Shown here: piece by piece, positions 3,788-51,467 of the stretch | Layout of the letters: each line of letters begins with the position of its first letter | How positions within the stretch are numbered: the stretch's first letter is position 1 | From: Ignavibacteriota bacterium | GTDB lineage: Bacteria > Bacteroidota > Ignavibacteria > Ignavibacteriales > Melioribacteraceae | Assembly: GCA_013112585.1 (NCBI GenBank) | Contig: JABFGH010000032.1 | Span: forward strand, 1 to 51,467 | Direction: 5' to 3' | DNA length: 51,467 nucleotides | The notes under the pieces: generated by a model | Databases searched by the model: none | Seen by the model: the letters and a program-made list of their open reading frames with translations, nothing else | Told to the model about the DNA's origin: nothing | Program-made: the position numbers and the translations under genes

Positions 3788-3860
<73 letters not shown>

Positions 3861-4176
3861 GTATAATTTTATAATTTAAAGAACCTTCGCGTAATAAGTC
3901 CGACGAGCTACTCCGTCAGCCGACGGACTCCACCCCGCGGTATAATTTTATAATTTAAAGAACCTTCGCGTAATAAGTCCGACGAGCTACTCCGTCAGTC
4001 GACGGACACCACCCCACGGTATAATTTTATAATTTAAAGAACCTTCGCGTAATAAGTCCGACGAGCTACTCCGTCAGTCGACGGACACCACCCCGCGGTA
4101 TAATTTTATAATTTAAAGAACCTTCGCGTAATAAGTCCGACGAGCTACTCCGTCAGCCGACGGACACCACCCCGCG
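3861..4176 (-). repeat. Four 79-bp tandem units derived from the tRNA-fMet promoter and 5' half
   Basis: Units are 3861-3939, 3940-4018, 4019-4097 and 4098-4176, each exactly 79 bp. On the minus strand each begins CGCGGGGTGG like the tRNA and continues through the D and anticodon arms to GAAGGTT. It then passes directly into the AT-rich sequence that also precedes the real tRNA. The T arm and 3' acceptor strand are absent. In every unit the D-loop is replaced by a 6-bp hairpin (TCCGTC-GRCT-GACGGA), and the anticodon arm carries the same four substitutions (ACTTATTACGCG against GCTCATAACCCG). Units differ from each other at only a few bases. None can form a functional tRNA. Confidence 0.9.
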
Positions 4177-4356
4177 ATGTAATTTTTATATCAAAATTTC
4201 TTTTCAAGTCTCTCAAAAAACAGTCTACTAATATAGCTTTTCAAAACTCATTAATCAAATATTTATGATAAAAAAGAGCTATTTAATTTATTCTTTTTAC
4301 TATATCCGCTTAAAAAATTATATTGCAGTTAAATTCGTTCAATAAATGCAGTTAAT

Positions 4357-40261: not shown

Positions 40262-42032
40262 CAAAAAAACTTGAGGTTGTTTGCGATACAGATTTCCAAA
40301 ATCTTTTTCTTTCGATAAGTGAATGAGTTGAATTAGTTTTAATTTCTAGCACCGTTAGGTTTTTGCTTTGTACTGCTTTTAATAATCCGGATTCAAAGTC
40401 ATTCCAACTTTTAATTTGATGGTGAACCCCTTCAAAGCCTTGAACGAATTTTTGAAAAGAGAGGTTATGAGGAGTTTTAAAAAATTTTGTGAAAACATTT
40501 TTATGTTCTGCAATCGGCAGCATCTCAAAAATACCGCCGCCGTTATTGTTTATTAGTACAATTGTTAAAGGGATTGATAAAAGCTTAGAAATTGATAAAC
40601 CGTTCAGGTCATGGAAAAAAGCTAAATCGCCGGTAACTAATACTGTAGGCACTTTTGCAGCTTTTGCAATCCCCATTGCGGTTGAAGTTATTCCGTCAAT
40701 TCCGCTTGCACCACGGCTGCAGTATAAATTTATTTTTGCACGTGATCCGGAGACAAAGAAATCTAAATCACGGATCGGCATGCTGTTAGAAACCATCAAG
40801 TTAAATTTTGAAGTCAAAGTCTGAGCAGCTGCGTTAATGATTTTTCCTTCAAACGGGAAAGCAGCCGAGTTAAGAAAGGCGGATTTAATTTCTTCTACTT
40901 TTTTATCAATTTTTAATAACTGTTCGCTGTAATTGTTATCAATATTTGTAACCGTACTTGATTTGAATTCACTTAAAAGTTTTTTACAAAAGCTTTCATA
41001 ATCGGATTTGAATAGACCGGCGGCTGAAAGTGAAGGATCGTGAATATCGCCGTATTTATTTACAAGAAAAATATCAGCCGAAGTTTCTTCAAAAAAATCT
41101 AATAAACTTTTTGAGGTTGGGGCGCCGCCGAATTGAATTATAAACCCGGCATCTAATTTTTTGCGTATCTCTTTTGTGCGTAAAAAATTAGCAGCATTTA
41201 CCACCATTCGTTTTTGTGAATGTTTCTTAAATCTTAAATTAGATGCGCCATCTGCAATTATTGGTAAATTATACTTCTGCGAAAGTTGGATACATAATTT
41301 TGAAAACTCATCCGAATAAAAATCGGAGCCGCAGAATATTATTCCTTTACTAGAATTTTTAATGGATGATTTAACAGCTTTCCAAAGTTTTACATTTTTT
41401 ATAGGATTAGTATTTCTCTGATTTACTTTAATATTTTCATTTAATAATAACTTGTAATCAGCAGCGTCAATCTTATCTGTATAAGCATCCGGTTCAAATG
41501 GCTTCTCAAACGGACAATTAAAATGTACCGGACCTCTATCTAAATTATCTGCAATTAAAAATCCTTCTCGGGTAATGTTTTTTAGCCGTCTGATTTTATT
41601 TATTGAAGTGCCGGGTAAACCCAAATCATAAAATTTACGAATATGGTTAGCAAAAATATTTATTTGATTTATTGTTTGATTCGCTCCCGAATATCTTAAC
41701 CGGGCTGGTCTATCGGCAGTAAAAATTAAAAGTGGAATTCTGCTTTTGTACGCTTCCACAATTGCGGGATAAAGTTCGGCTGCGGCTGTTCCGGATGTTG
41801 TTACGACTGCAGTAGGCTGATTTAATTTTTTTGCTAAACCTAATGCAAAAAAAGCTGATGATCGTTCATCTAAAATTAAATGAGTCTTAAAGTACTTCTC
41901 TCTTGAAAATGCAAATATTAAAGGTGTGCTTCGGGAACCGGGTGAAAAACAGATATGCTTTAAACCGCATTTTTTAAGTTGAGCAGCCAAAACGTCAGCC
42001 CAAAATATATTACGATTGATAGATTTTTTCAT
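40251..42032 (-). CDS. menD: SEPHCHC synthase MenD (ThDP-dependent)
   Basis: A 593-residue enzyme joining 2-oxoglutarate to isochorismate. FSPGSRSTPL, the AVVTTSGTAAAEL glutamate region, and the ThDP-binding GDLAFFHDLNGL...NNNGGGIFEMLP motif are conserved. The frame is open 33 codons further upstream, but that stretch lies inside menF and lacks family similarity; the ATG at 42032 gives the standard N-terminus and a 23-base overlap with menF. Confidence 0.95.
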   Translation of the reverse strand: MKKSINRNIFWADVLAAQLKKCGLKHICFSPGSRSTPLIFAFSREKYFKTHLILDERSSAFFALGLAKKLNQPTAVVTTSGTAAAELYPAIVEAYKSRIPLLIFTADRPARLRYSGANQTINQINIFANHIRKFYDLGLPGTSINKIRRLKNITREGFLIADNLDRGPVHFNCPFEKPFEPDAYTDKIDAADYKLLLNENIKVNQRNTNPIKNVKLWKAVKSSIKNSSKGIIFCGSDFYSDEFSKLCIQLSQKYNLPIIADGASNLRFKKHSQKRMVVNAANFLRTKEIRKKLDAGFIIQFGGAPTSKSLLDFFEETSADIFLVNKYGDIHDPSLSAAGLFKSDYESFCKKLLSEFKSSTVTNIDNNYSEQLLKIDKKVEEIKSAFLNSAAFPFEGKIINAAAQTLTSKFNLMVSNSMPIRDLDFFVSGSRAKINLYCSRGASGIDGITSTAMGIAKAAKVPTVLVTGDLAFFHDLNGLSISKLLSIPLTIVLINNNGGGIFEMLPIAEHKNVFTKFFKTPHNLSFQKFVQGFEGVHHQIKSWNDFESGLLKAVQSKNLTVLEIKTNSTHSLIERKRFWKSVSQTTSSFFDGN

Positions 42033-43407
42033 TTTCAAAAATTGATAGAATAGGTTTGAGCTTAAGTTTGGTTTCCTCAAACTCCTCTTGAGGAATGGAA
42101 CCGTCAACAATTCCGCAGCCGGCAAACGCATAAAGTTTTTTATTTTTAAGAAGTGCGGAACGAATTGCTACTGCAAACTCACCTTGTGTATCAAAATTGT
42201 ACCAACCGATAATCCCGCTGAAAAGTCCGCGCGGATAATCTTCAATTTCGCTGATCAGTTCCAAAGCAATTTCTCGCGGGGTGCCGCAAATTGCAGGAGT
42301 TGGATGAAGCCTTTTTACTATTTCTTCAATGTCTTCTGCATTATTAAGTTCGGCTTTTATTGGTGTCCATAAATGTTGAATGTTAGGCAGCTTTTTAATA
42401 AAAGGTTTTTCAAAGTAATTAATATTTTTACTGAAAGGCTGAATAGCGTTCATAACAAATTTTACAACCTCACCATATTCGCGCAAATTTTTGCTGTCGT
42501 TTAAAAGTTTTATCTCAAGTTCACTATCTTCAAAATCATTAGCGCCTCGTTTAATTGATCCGGCGAGCGCATCTGTTTCAATGTGGGTATTATTGAACGA
42601 TAAAAGCTTTTCGGGTGAGGCACCTATAAATGCAGAACCGTTTTTTTTGTATGCAAAAATATAGCAGCCTTTATAATCTTCTTTCAGTTTGTTTATAATA
42701 CGCTGAAGTGAAGGGGATTCATCTAAATCTTTTTCAACTCTGCGGGATAATACTACCTTGCTGATATGACCATTTGAAATTTCATCCAGCGCTGCATTTA
42801 TTTTTGCAGTCCATGATTCCAGGTCTTCCGGTTTTTCCTCCGGTGGTTCCGATAAATCAAAACCATTTTTTATATAAGTGCCGTTGTTAAAATCTAATAT
42901 TTTAATTCTTTCTTTGAACTTTTTCTCTAATAAATGTAATTCAGAACCATTAAATACAAAATTTACAATTGCATAATTTTTATTGGCTGTGCATAAATAA
43001 ATAATTTTAGGAATAAACCAATTGAAGGTTTCAAAATCTGTCCAAATTCCTTCTTTATTTTCTGATTCAAATTTAGATGCACCCACAGTTAAAGGGAAGG
43101 AAATATTATTGAATTCCTGATGATTATGGAAAAATTTAGATTCCCATTTTTTTAGTAGAGAAGATATTAGCGGTGAATTTGATGCGTCGGAATTTGCAAT
43201 CTCATATTCTGCATCTGAGGCAATAAATGCAAAATCTTTCCAGCTTGTATCAAAGTAGAAGAATTGTTCAAAATTTGAATTGAAAAGTTTTATTAATTTA
43301 TGTCGCTCAATTTTACCTGCTTCCAAAGCATAGCTGATAAAATATTGCTTGTCGGCTTCAACTCTTTCTTCTATATTTTCGATAAATTTACTAAAACGGC
43401 TATTCAC
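42010..43407 (-). CDS. menF: Isochorismate synthase MenF
   Basis: A 465-residue chorismate-binding enzyme. KVVLSRRVE, FIGASPEKLL, ETDALAGSIKRG, HPTPAICGTPREIA and the final GCGIVDGSIPQEEFEET block with metal-binding glutamates are those of MenF/EntC enzymes. First gene of the menaquinone operon. It starts at GTG with an aggaa Shine-Dalgarno sequence just upstream. Anthranilate synthase component I is excluded by the HPTPA.CG and isochorismate-type C-terminus, and by context. Confidence 0.94.
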   Translation of the reverse strand: MNSRFSKFIENIEERVEADKQYFISYALEAGKIERHKLIKLFNSNFEQFFYFDTSWKDFAFIASDAEYEIANSDASNSPLISSLLKKWESKFFHNHQEFNNISFPLTVGASKFESENKEGIWTDFETFNWFIPKIIYLCTANKNYAIVNFVFNGSELHLLEKKFKERIKILDFNNGTYIKNGFDLSEPPEEKPEDLESWTAKINAALDEISNGHISKVVLSRRVEKDLDESPSLQRIINKLKEDYKGCYIFAYKKNGSAFIGASPEKLLSFNNTHIETDALAGSIKRGANDFEDSELEIKLLNDSKNLREYGEVVKFVMNAIQPFSKNINYFEKPFIKKLPNIQHLWTPIKAELNNAEDIEEIVKRLHPTPAICGTPREIALELISEIEDYPRGLFSGIIGWYNFDTQGEFAVAIRSALLKNKKLYAFAGCGIVDGSIPQEEFEETKLKLKPILSIFENEKIYQS

Positions 43408-43462: not shown

Positions 43463-43554
43463 TATTTGGAACAAAATAGTTTCACTAATGGATCAAAAAT
43501 AAATCGATTTTAATAGAATTAATAAATGCTGCATAAAAAAGAAATGTATTTGAT

Positions 43555-44259
43555 TTACAACCCATGATGTCGTTCTCCTTGAACTGCGCTGCAGTTCTTC
43601 CTTCATTCCGCATTCGTCTTATCTATGGATTTCATCCATAGCTATTTATCTTGAAGTACTTCGTACTTCCGGAGGGGATTCAACTTAGAAATATTTATTT
43701 TGAAAAGTTTGTACTTCAGGTTATACAATTTATTTTTCCTGTTCCAAAATATTTATGACTGCAGCGCAGTCAAAAATAAATAGCCCCGAATGCAATTCGG
43801 GTTAAATGATGCGGCGATTAGATTTATCAACTACGAATGTAGTTGAAGTTACAACCCATGATGTCGTTCTCCTTGAACTGCGCTGCAGTTCTTCCTTCAT
43901 TCCATATTCGTCTTATCTATGGATTTCATCCACAGCTATTCATCTTGAAGTACTTCGTACTTCCGGAGGGGATTCGACTTAGAAATATTTATTTTTAAAA
44001 GTTCGTACTTCCGTTATACAATTTATTTTTGGTGTTACAAAATCTTTATGACTGCAACGCAGTCAAAAATAAATAGCCCCGAATGCAATTCGGGGTAAAT
44101 GATGTGGCGATTAGATTTATCAACTACGAATGTAGTTGAAGTTACACCACCATGATATCGTTCTTCTTGAACTGCGCTGCAGTTCTCCCTCATTCTACAT
44201 TCCTCTTATCTATGGATTTCATCCATAGCTATTTATCTTGAAGTACTTCGTACTTCCGG
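43555..44259. repeat. Tandem array (2.4 copies of about 294 bp) of short-loop hairpins
   Basis: Copies: 43555-43848, 43849-44141, and a partial 44142-44259. Each full copy carries six hairpins with 6-8 bp stems and 3-4 base loops. In copy 1 these are gaactgc-gct-gcagttc (43581-43597), tatggat-ttc-atccata (43624-43640), gaagtac-ttc-gtacttc (43653-43669), gactgc-agc-gcagtc (43757-43771), cccgaat-gca-attcggg (43785-43801) and caactac-gaat-gtagttg (43828-43845). There is no ORF. The remaining 245 bases before the marR gene show nothing further. Confidence 0.85.
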
Positions 44260-44504: not shown

Positions 44505-44939
44505 GTGAGTTCCATTGTGAAAACAGCCAAGAAAAAATCGGTATTAGACCTCTGGTCAAAACTTACACATGCTTTTGATATGGTAAGAAAAGGTCATACA
44601 AAGCATATTTCTCAGTACAATTTAACTGTTCCCCAGTTTGGGGTTTTGGAAGTATTAAACGATAACGGTGCCATGCCGCTTAAAAAAATAAGTGAAGTGA
44701 TGCTGGTTACCGGTGCCAATATTACCTGCGTTGTGGATAACCTGGAAAAGGAAGACCTTGCAAAAAGAGTCCCTTCCAAAGAGGATAGAAGAATTATTAA
44801 TGCAGAACTTACCGAAAAAGGAAAACAAAAAGTAGCAAGTATTCTTCCCGGGTATACAAAAAATATTTCAGATCTGGTTGGTAAATTAAGTGATAATGAA
44901 CAAAAAGAATTAATGCGGTTATTAGATAAAATGCTTTAA
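44505..44939 (+). CDS. MarR-family transcriptional regulator
   Basis: A 144-residue winged-helix regulator: dimerisation helices at both ends, recognition region LKKISEVMLVTGANITCVVDNLEKEDLAKR, and the wing VPSKEDRRIINAELTEKGKQ typical of MarR. The frame opens at GTG 44505; a second GTG at 44517 has a better-spaced aagtgag upstream and may be the real start. It converges on prmA (9-base gap), so its target is not evident from position. The long hairpin array lies directly upstream. Confidence 0.88.
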   Translation: MSSIVKTAKKKSVLDLWSKLTHAFDMVRKGHTKHISQYNLTVPQFGVLEVLNDNGAMPLKKISEVMLVTGANITCVVDNLEKEDLAKRVPSKEDRRIINAELTEKGKQKVASILPGYTKNISDLVGKLSDNEQKELMRLLDKML

Positions 44940-51108: not shown

Positions 51109-51231
51109 GAATGAAATTACACTCTGGAGAATGAAAATTCAAGAGGGATATTTATAAGGTTTAGAAATTGTAAAAATAATTAGAGTTAAAAGGCTAAGTT
51201 CCATTAATAACAGCAAAATAAATTTATACTT

Positions 51232-51289
51232 GAACTACTCCGTAGTTCCTTCTCGCATTGTTATCATTTACCACGGATTTTATCCGTGG
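51232..51289. repeat. Hairpin pair related to the 43.6-kb array
   Basis: gaactac-tcc-gtagttc (51232-51248) and ccacggat-ttt-atccgtgg (51271-51289) occupy the same order and spacing class as the first two hairpins of the 43555-44259 units, embedded in similar cttgaact/ggttatt flanks. Both stems differ by paired changes. Confidence 0.7.
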
Positions 51290-51356
51290 TTATTAAGCTT
51301 TAACCCCTTGTATGTTGAAAGTTAATAATGGAAAAATAGTAAAAAAATAGTTAAGT

Positions 51357-51467
51357 ATGGAAAAGGAGGAATACCCCTTGGTCTACGAGACCGACCCGGA
51401 GTTTCTTCTTTTCGTCAGGCAAATAGCGTGGAATAACCTGGTTGTAAGAAACCGCATAGGACAAGGA
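51357..51467 (+). CDS. Partial ORF running off the window, unknown
   Basis: Thirty-seven codons without a stop start MEKEEYPLVYETDPEFLLF. The strong Shine-Dalgarno aaggagga lies inside this frame (about 51362-51369), 8 bases before an in-frame TTG at 51378, which may be the true start. G+C is 53 of 111 bases, and codons such as tac, gac, ccg and gcg are richer in G/C at third positions than those of neighbouring genes. This suggests a gene of different origin. Too short to identify. Confidence 0.4.
   Translation, partial: MEKEEYPLVYETDPEFLLFVRQIAWNNLVVRNRIGQG

Follow-up and report, generated by a model that had tools for sequence, protein, structure and literature searches.

What are the dense hairpins that lie between two divergent genes of an Ignavibacteriota bacterium, and what do they belong to? 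The window analysed here, a 51,467-nt stretch of DNA that is taken as a whole, contains a tandem array at 43543–44259 (period 293, 2.4 copies, 92% matches by TRF); identity to copy 1 is 95% for copy 2 and 92% for the partial copy 3. The array holds 14 perfect hairpins (scan: stem ≥6, loop 3–5), and the next biggest cluster in the window holds four. A sequence-only reading had described a unit of about 294 bp in 2.4 copies between the men operon and a MarR gene, with an agc/aac loop substitution between copies, and all of this holds, including the substitution (TGACTGCagcGCAGTCA / TGACTGCaacGCAGTCA). We propose that the array is probably a transposase-less, tandemly amplified REP/BIME-like cluster of inverted three-hairpin pairs, and the DNA partner of a subclass 1.2 TnpA_Y1 encoded elsewhere in the genome. 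The association is observed directly; catalysis is what we infer from it.

An array of inverted three-hairpin modules

The features of the locus are listed below, with bit scores from the covariance model R1, which has the five array modules among its training sequences.

43543..44259, no strand: tandem array, period ~294 bp, 2.4 copies (TRF, hairpin scan, cmsearch)
43577..43672, + strand: module A copy 1 (R1 74.1 bits, E 4e-12); h1 GAACTGC-gct-GCAGTTC, h2 CTATGGAT-ttc-ATCCATAG, linker CTATTTATCTT, h3 GAAGTAC-ttc-GTACTTC
43753..43849, − strand: module B copy 1, inverted (R1 68.4 bits); h1 CAACTAC-attc-GTAGTTG, h2 CCCGAAT-tgc-ATTCGGG, h3 GACTGC-gct-GCAGTC
43871..43966, + strand: module A copy 2, in which a single base breaks h2 (R1 72.3 bits)
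44046..44142, − strand: module B copy 2, inverted (R1 75.4 bits)
44165..44259, + strand: module A copy 3, the array ending 3 nt past its h3 (R1 76.0 bits)
51228..51320, + strand: sixth window module, of another subfamily and outside the training set, h2 CCACGGAT-ttt-ATCCGTGG (R1 56.7 bits)
42010..43407, − strand: menF-like gene (chorismate-binding), divergent neighbour (PF00425, E 4.7e-73)
44505..44939, + strand: MarR-family regulator, divergent neighbour (PF01047, E 2.3e-12)

The sequence-only reading saw six different hairpins in each unit. The hairpins are there, but every second triplet, when inverted, aligns end to end with the others, so that each supposed cassette of six proves to be the same module twice, in inverted orientation. 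Six unrelated hairpins can be rejected, as A and inverted B align over their full length. The module is ~90 nt long and runs h1 - linker - h2 - CTATTnATnTT - h3, with 7–8 bp in h1, ~25 nt in the first linker, 7–8 bp in h2, CTATTTATCTT or a close sequence as the second linker, and 6–7 bp in h3. Five modules make up the array, which reads A B' A B' A (cmsearch; B' is B on the − strand), where type A has h2 CTATGGAT and type B has h2 CCCCGAAT. A spacing of 29 nt separates the h1 ends of B' and the next A, and one of ~87 nt the h3 ends of A and the next B'. In 2.5 copies, 14 of the 15 expected hairpins are perfect, the exception being the broken h2 of copy 2. Single modules folded as DNA form their three hairpins on each strand, plus some weak additional pairs (z −5.8 to −6.9). 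A strict triple scan recovers four of the five modules in the array, none in the remaining window and none in Markov shuffles of 108 loci.

The menF-like and MarR genes face the array with their 5' ends, and beyond the menF-like gene come members of the TPP-enzyme, hydrolase, ECH and UbiA families (putatively MenD/H/B/A). Given the position of the array 5' of both divergent genes, plain terminators are rejected.

A repeat interrupts h3 of the sixth window module, and it also borders the same module where contigs C8 and C19 begin. Module hairpins at contig ends, including the right end of the window, are adjoined by two different repeats that are probably insertion sequences (window 51306–51467; L174 and L175, the starts of C8 and C19; L160, L166 and L176); the assembly seems to break where a repeat has inserted into these hairpins. 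Elsewhere in the window, a 79-bp tandem repeat (3851–4186, 4.3 copies, 97% matches) lies beside a tRNA gene (3788–3860, − strand) and contains four TCCGTC/GACGGA hairpins.

Covariation in the module stems

A search for hairpin triples that uses no sequence rule finds 53 triples, spread over 30 of 112 loci, and shuffles of 108 loci give none; both the linker CTATTnATnTT and the loops TTC/TGC/TCC emerged from it unprompted. A sequence rule on the h2–h3 linker, used for orientation, dropped 9 of the 53, at least one of which (L075) is a proper module, and one duplicate was also removed before alignment A2. In the 48 modules of A2, standard pairs fill 96.4% of pair cells against 69.2% after shuffling, and double changes occur at 21 of 22 pairs; the number of pair types is not above that of shuffles (253 of 500 reach it). 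Because 43 of the 48 rows had been picked for Watson-Crick stems, this covariation is partly circular, and we therefore rely on a motif-anchored hairpin test and on rows outside the training set.

First, the motif [CT]TA[TC][TC] follows 63 triloop hairpins of 8 bp, and among these a further hairpin stands at the h3 place in 52, at the h1 place in 52 and at both in 44. The corresponding h3 and h1 counts are 79 and 190 of 3950 at random positions, 9 and 23 for 139 hairpins without the motif, and 3 and 0 for 63 hairpins with the mirrored motif. Second, R1 has 231 matches in 79 transposase loci of relatives (described below), of which the best 150 were aligned and 38 dropped as training rows or duplicates. 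The remaining 112 distinct rows come from 44 loci and have Watson-Crick pairs in 90.8% of cells, in stems that vary; the outermost h3 pair is loose (50/111). The module stems covary, and covariation across copies was a test that the sequence-only reading had itself set.

Loops and strand

The non-standard pairs and the loops differ between the two strands. In the 112 non-training rows, the module strand has 111 A.C cells against 37 G.T, and 57 against 20 when each locus, pair and type is counted once (all 150 rows, one loose pair column left out); G.T amounts to 1.6% of standard pairs on this strand. Since A.C on the module strand is G.T on the other, the complementary strand is likelier to fold. 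Triloops in modules (n=338) are TNC in 275 cases and GNA in 4, and hairpins away from modules have TNC or GNA in 42 of 195. TNC triloops on the module strand mean that the complementary strand carries GNA loops, which together with G-C stems are described as extraordinarily stable DNA minihairpins (PMC4686876). The rule is not strict, as h1 of A and h3 of B in the window have AGC or AAC loops on the complementary strand. The GNA-loop strand may fold as single-stranded DNA; RNA of the same strand would also fit these counts.

Modules and Y1 transposase genes in the same genome

The genome (4.94 Mb, 77 contigs) contains many further copies. A BLAST search finds 48 places, three of which are the array itself, and R1 identifies at least 121 modules (E≤0.01), a lower bound given that 150 of 2419 candidates were scored. 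Module strands alternate at C4:56157-57350, and another subfamily forms (+)(−) pairs with h3 ends nearly abutting. Eight Y1_Tnp (HUH) genes are present, and two of these, on contigs C1 and C24, have R1 matches on both sides; the other six loci have no R1 match at E≤0.1. The C1 gene lies between a − strand module at a distance of 30 nt and a + strand module at 23 nt. Around the C24 gene the modules have the opposite order, which counts against our preferred explanation.

Around two of the six module-less genes, C13 and C25, the hairpins belong to other families and have four-base loops. Near the more distant Y1 genes of the genome (L003 1180–2220, L001 1220–2080), four-base-loop hairpin families such as TTTA/TAAA and TTCA/TGAA are observed. 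An IS1182-family transposase gene (NF033551, 472 bits) sits inside a module pair, at an h1 hairpin (L208 729–2174; G000 C9).

The C1 and C24 proteins are 148 and 153 aa long, are 76% identical to each other, and share HUH, WQ and YIxNQKEHH motifs. Four own-genome proteins were tested: in all four the H, H, W, Y, Q and HH residues are invariant, with the variants DHLH, EHVH and WS, and all four score over the cut-off for IS200/IS605 transposases (NF033573) and under that for REP transposases (NCBIfam). TnpA_Y1 subclass 1.2 is listed with DH[IV]H, WQ and Y---Q--HH motifs and a length of ~148 aa (Quentin 2018, PMC6006769, Table 1). By motifs, as distinct from placement in the published tree, the partner proteins match this subclass. 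A PDB sequence search with the C1 transposase gave no matches.

Modules around transposase genes in relatives

Named genomes were scanned with the four own-genome proteins, and the best 80 of 432 relatives gave 79 distinct loci. Counted over all sequence, genic and intergenic alike, perfect hairpins (stem 7+, loop 3–5) reach 3.52 per kb up to 600 nt from the transposase gene; the density falls to 0.44 at distances above 1200 nt and is 0.31 in Markov shuffles. At least three are present in 54 of the 79 loci. HUH and Y[IVL]xxQxxHH motifs occur in 74 of the 79 proteins. By their record titles, the loci with R1 matches include Verrucomicrobia, Phycisphaerae, Cloacimonadota, Chlorobiota, Ignavibacteriae, Acidobacteria, Lentisphaeria and Bacteroidetes; the one Calditrichaeota locus has none.

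At 60 loci the protein is at least 49% identical to that of C1, and 59 of these have modules. With distances taken from the ends of the protein match, so that the stop codon does not count as gene, the nearest upstream module lies within 300 nt in 55 of the 60 and is on the − strand in 52 of those 55 (4–118 nt from the match, 17 within 15 nt). The nearest downstream module lies within 300 nt in 52 of the 60 and is on the + strand in 48 of those 52 (2–59 nt away in 47 and 259 nt in one; 31 within 15 nt). The order '− gene +', with modules on both sides, is found at 43 of the 60 loci, and the opposite order, which again counts against our preferred explanation, at L070 and L072, two copies on one contig. 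These counts indicate that the gene is typically enclosed by an inverted pair of modules whose h1 faces it. The 37 loci that gave no training sequence have modules in 36 cases and the '− gene +' order in 24. Among the 19 more distant loci, nine have any R1 match and five have that order. A Flavo-1 RNA (RF01705) lies close downstream of a module and transposase gene at L073 3948–4032.

A mechanism can be proposed for this arrangement. In single-stranded DNA (lagging-strand template, nicked or displaced), each module would fold into three short hairpins, with GNA triloops on one strand. The transposase would recognise these hairpins and nick and rejoin the DNA beside them, and inverted pairs could in this way be spread and shuffled. 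Tandem units may expand or contract via slippage or unequal recombination, and the window array may have grown in place. Among the options that the sequence-only reading had offered, DNA mobilised as single strands is the best supported, by the inverted modules that flank Y1 (HUH) genes and by the GNA loops.

Co-occurrence with the transposase and absence from this site in relatives

Modules and transposase also go together at the genome level. Samples overlap and species are related, so the Fisher p-values are a guide only: in the family sample (79 genomes; R1 E≤1e-3), modules are present in 22 of the 60 genomes that have a transposase match and in 1 of the 19 that lack one (0.009), and in 8 of 8 with a close transposase (E≤1e-50) against 15 of 71 others (2e-5); in the phylum sample (198 genomes; R1 E≤1e-4), they are present in 26 of 95 with a match and 5 of 103 without (1e-5), and in 11 of 11 with a close transposase against 20 of 187 others (2e-10). 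Two results of the phylum sample go against our preferred explanation: R1 finds no module in 69 of the 84 genomes that have a distant match only, and five of the 103 genomes that lack a transposase match do have modules.

At the site itself, R1 modules occur at none of 19 relatives' marR loci, against five here. A menF-like match lies beside marR in 18 of the 19 (11 strong, E≤1e-32; seven weak, E 4e-20 to 3e-9). With gene starts back-projected from tblastn, the menF–marR gap measures 157–449 nt in ten relatives (all strong) and 661–1025 nt in eight, six of which hold an ORF of at least 169 aa in the gap; here it measures 1097 nt. The array is therefore lineage-specific and not a conserved element of menF or marR.

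These results bear on two rival explanations. A conserved structured RNA, or a regulatory leader of the men operon or marR, would suit covarying stems and an array upstream of both divergent genes, and the A.C cells, being G.U on the complementary strand, are compatible with RNA from that strand. However, modules are absent from the relatives' marR loci, nearly all of which retain the menF-like match, and are present at many other places. At the gathering threshold, Rfam finds one tRNA only in the window, and one tRNA and one Flavo-1 in six other loci, none at a module; G.T, the pair of an RNA from the module strand, fills fewer cells there than A.C. Structured RNA or riboswitch, also among the options of the sequence-only reading, was rejected on the lack of Rfam matches and the absence from this site, and we regard an RNA role as most improbable. 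The second rival is a repeat that the host maintains for chromosome structure (a nucleoid protein, gyrase or polymerase site), independent of any transposase. REPs are described as bound by such proteins (PMC6006769), and the modules are numerous, but the tight inverted placement at tnpA, the co-occurrence with tnpA and the absence from this site in relatives leave this explanation with very little probability.

Unit mobility and terminal repeats

On one Chitinophagaceae contig, the L079 and L080 units share 98.5% identity across ~780 bp, with unrelated sequence around them, and represent a unit and its recent second copy. Homologous loci of Cognataquiflexum species (L069, L090, L091) have different numbers of ~143-bp module units, which indicates that arrays grow and shrink.

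Some units have terminal inverted repeats (TIRs) with direct repeats outside them. In L079 and L080, TIRs of ~15 bp form the ends of the units, and 9-bp direct repeats lie outside them (by eye; a strict scan recovers L080 and not L079). L042 has a ~25-bp TIR and the 8-bp direct repeat CAATAAAC on both sides, and L104 has an 18-bp TIR and the 10-bp direct repeat GGGCAGGGGG. In the own genome, the dispersed (+)(−) pairs have in common a ~33-bp TIR starting GGCTAAGTTC; seven full copies have exact 7–8-bp direct repeats in three cases, near ones in two and none in two, with small offsets allowed and no chance control. The IS-interrupted copy in L208 has GTAAAAAT on both sides (by eye). The strict scan for TIRs with direct repeats, in which modules were masked in 79 named loci and unmasked in 29 relatives, is passed by 7 of 106 loci, against 0–1 in ten control runs with swapped flanks; of the seven, L042, L080 and L104 are convincing. 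A looser scan (36/78 against 6–11 in swapped controls) was rejected, as many of its matches resembled the modules' own inverted symmetry.

To our knowledge, no Y1 enzyme is known to make target duplications. The apparent duplications thus mean either that another transposase moves some units or that the Y1 enzyme does something new. By the first alternative, modules and tnpA are passengers that a target-duplicating DDE-type transposase moves in trans through the outer TIRs, as with MITEs, and the Y1 protein has another role in spread or none. The repeats at L079/L080, L042, L104, the own-genome (+)(−) pairs and L208 speak for this, as does the fact that, besides tnpA, no ORF longer than 78 aa overlaps the L042 unit and none longer than 96 aa the L080 unit. 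Against it, very few loci pass the strict scan and fewer still are trusted; the TIRs vary between lineages whereas the module is constant; no TIR is seen at the window array; and an IS1595-type transposase as mover of the own-genome (+)(−) pairs was rejected in a search that covered this type (PF12762, no matches in the genome). We consider the passenger explanation unlikely. By the second alternative, subclass 1.2 elements would be a new kind of HUH/Y1 transposon, with tnpA between two inverted three-hairpin ends that carry GNA triloops on one strand, gene-less pairs as REPINs, and the Y1 enzyme itself inserting units with TIRs and 8–10-bp target duplications; this we hold to be quite doubtful. 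The reading of the array as a REP/BIME-like cluster with its partner transposase elsewhere in the genome is the one that we carry forward.

Comparison with known systems

IS200/IS605 elements (TnpA_Y1 subclass 1.1) likewise have an HUH transposase with a single Tyr, and tnpA is enclosed by hairpin-forming ends. The ends of IS200 are hairpins on the same strand, whereas here they are inverted three-hairpin modules, and in this genome two genes stand against at least 121 modules. IS200/IS605 elements are not known to make target site duplications or to have terminal inverted repeats; a few module units have TIRs with 8–10-bp direct repeats, which are not seen in most.

Two other Y1-associated groups also offer likenesses. 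In TIRtrons (TIRYT; Di Nocera and colleagues 2013, PMC3733652), some units with Y1 genes are described as bounded by terminal inverted repeats, but the module here is a covarying three-hairpin repeat. The terms 'target site' and 'duplication' occur zero times in that paper. Of 26 TIRtron examples listed, 20 are in subclass 2.1 and the rest in 2.2 and 2.5 (PMC6006769). The atypical REPs listed for subclass 2.6 (PMC6006769) are mostly from Bacteroidetes, lack GT[AG]G, were found by manual inspection and have copies elsewhere in the genome; their transposases have a YIH[QN]NP motif in place of the YxxxQxxHH found here, and the two differ in protein subclass. For subclass 1.2, the REP partner is listed as 'no' (Quentin et al. 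2018, PMC6006769), and a literature search that covered listings, abstract openings and selected passages found no described repeat that partners this subclass.

The modules supply a DNA partner for a transposase subclass described as having none, and explain hairpin clusters in several phyla. The three-hairpin, strand-marked substrate makes single-strand recognition by the subclass 1.2 enzyme directly testable. In view of the few units with apparent target duplications, one may also ask what moves Y1-associated repeats.

The strongest likeness is to REP/BIME/REPIN sequences and their RAYT transposases (TnpA_REP, TnpA_Y1 class 2). Both are short palindromic multicopy repeats that occur in inverted pairs and tandem clusters, with several subfamilies per genome; here the modules form a many-copy palindromic repeat, with the window array between two genes, and inverted pairs, in tandem as A B' A B' A in the window and with alternating strands on contig C4. 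Both have a transposase gene flanked by repeats, as in a REPtron. They differ in that each unit here has three hairpins where a REP has one, in the conserved 11-nt linker like CTATTnATnTT between h2 and h3, and in a transposase with subclass 1.2 and not class 2 motifs. The GT[AG]G tetranucleotide is found 0–2 nt 5' of the hairpin in 8 of 423 cases on the module strand and 19 of 423 on the other, and in the window modules in 0 of 14 on each. The scarcity of GT[AG]G, which also counts against our preferred explanation, and the three hairpins per unit place the module outside the described REP types. In its organisation the array resembles a REP/BIME cluster and its REPtron, and it probably works like one.
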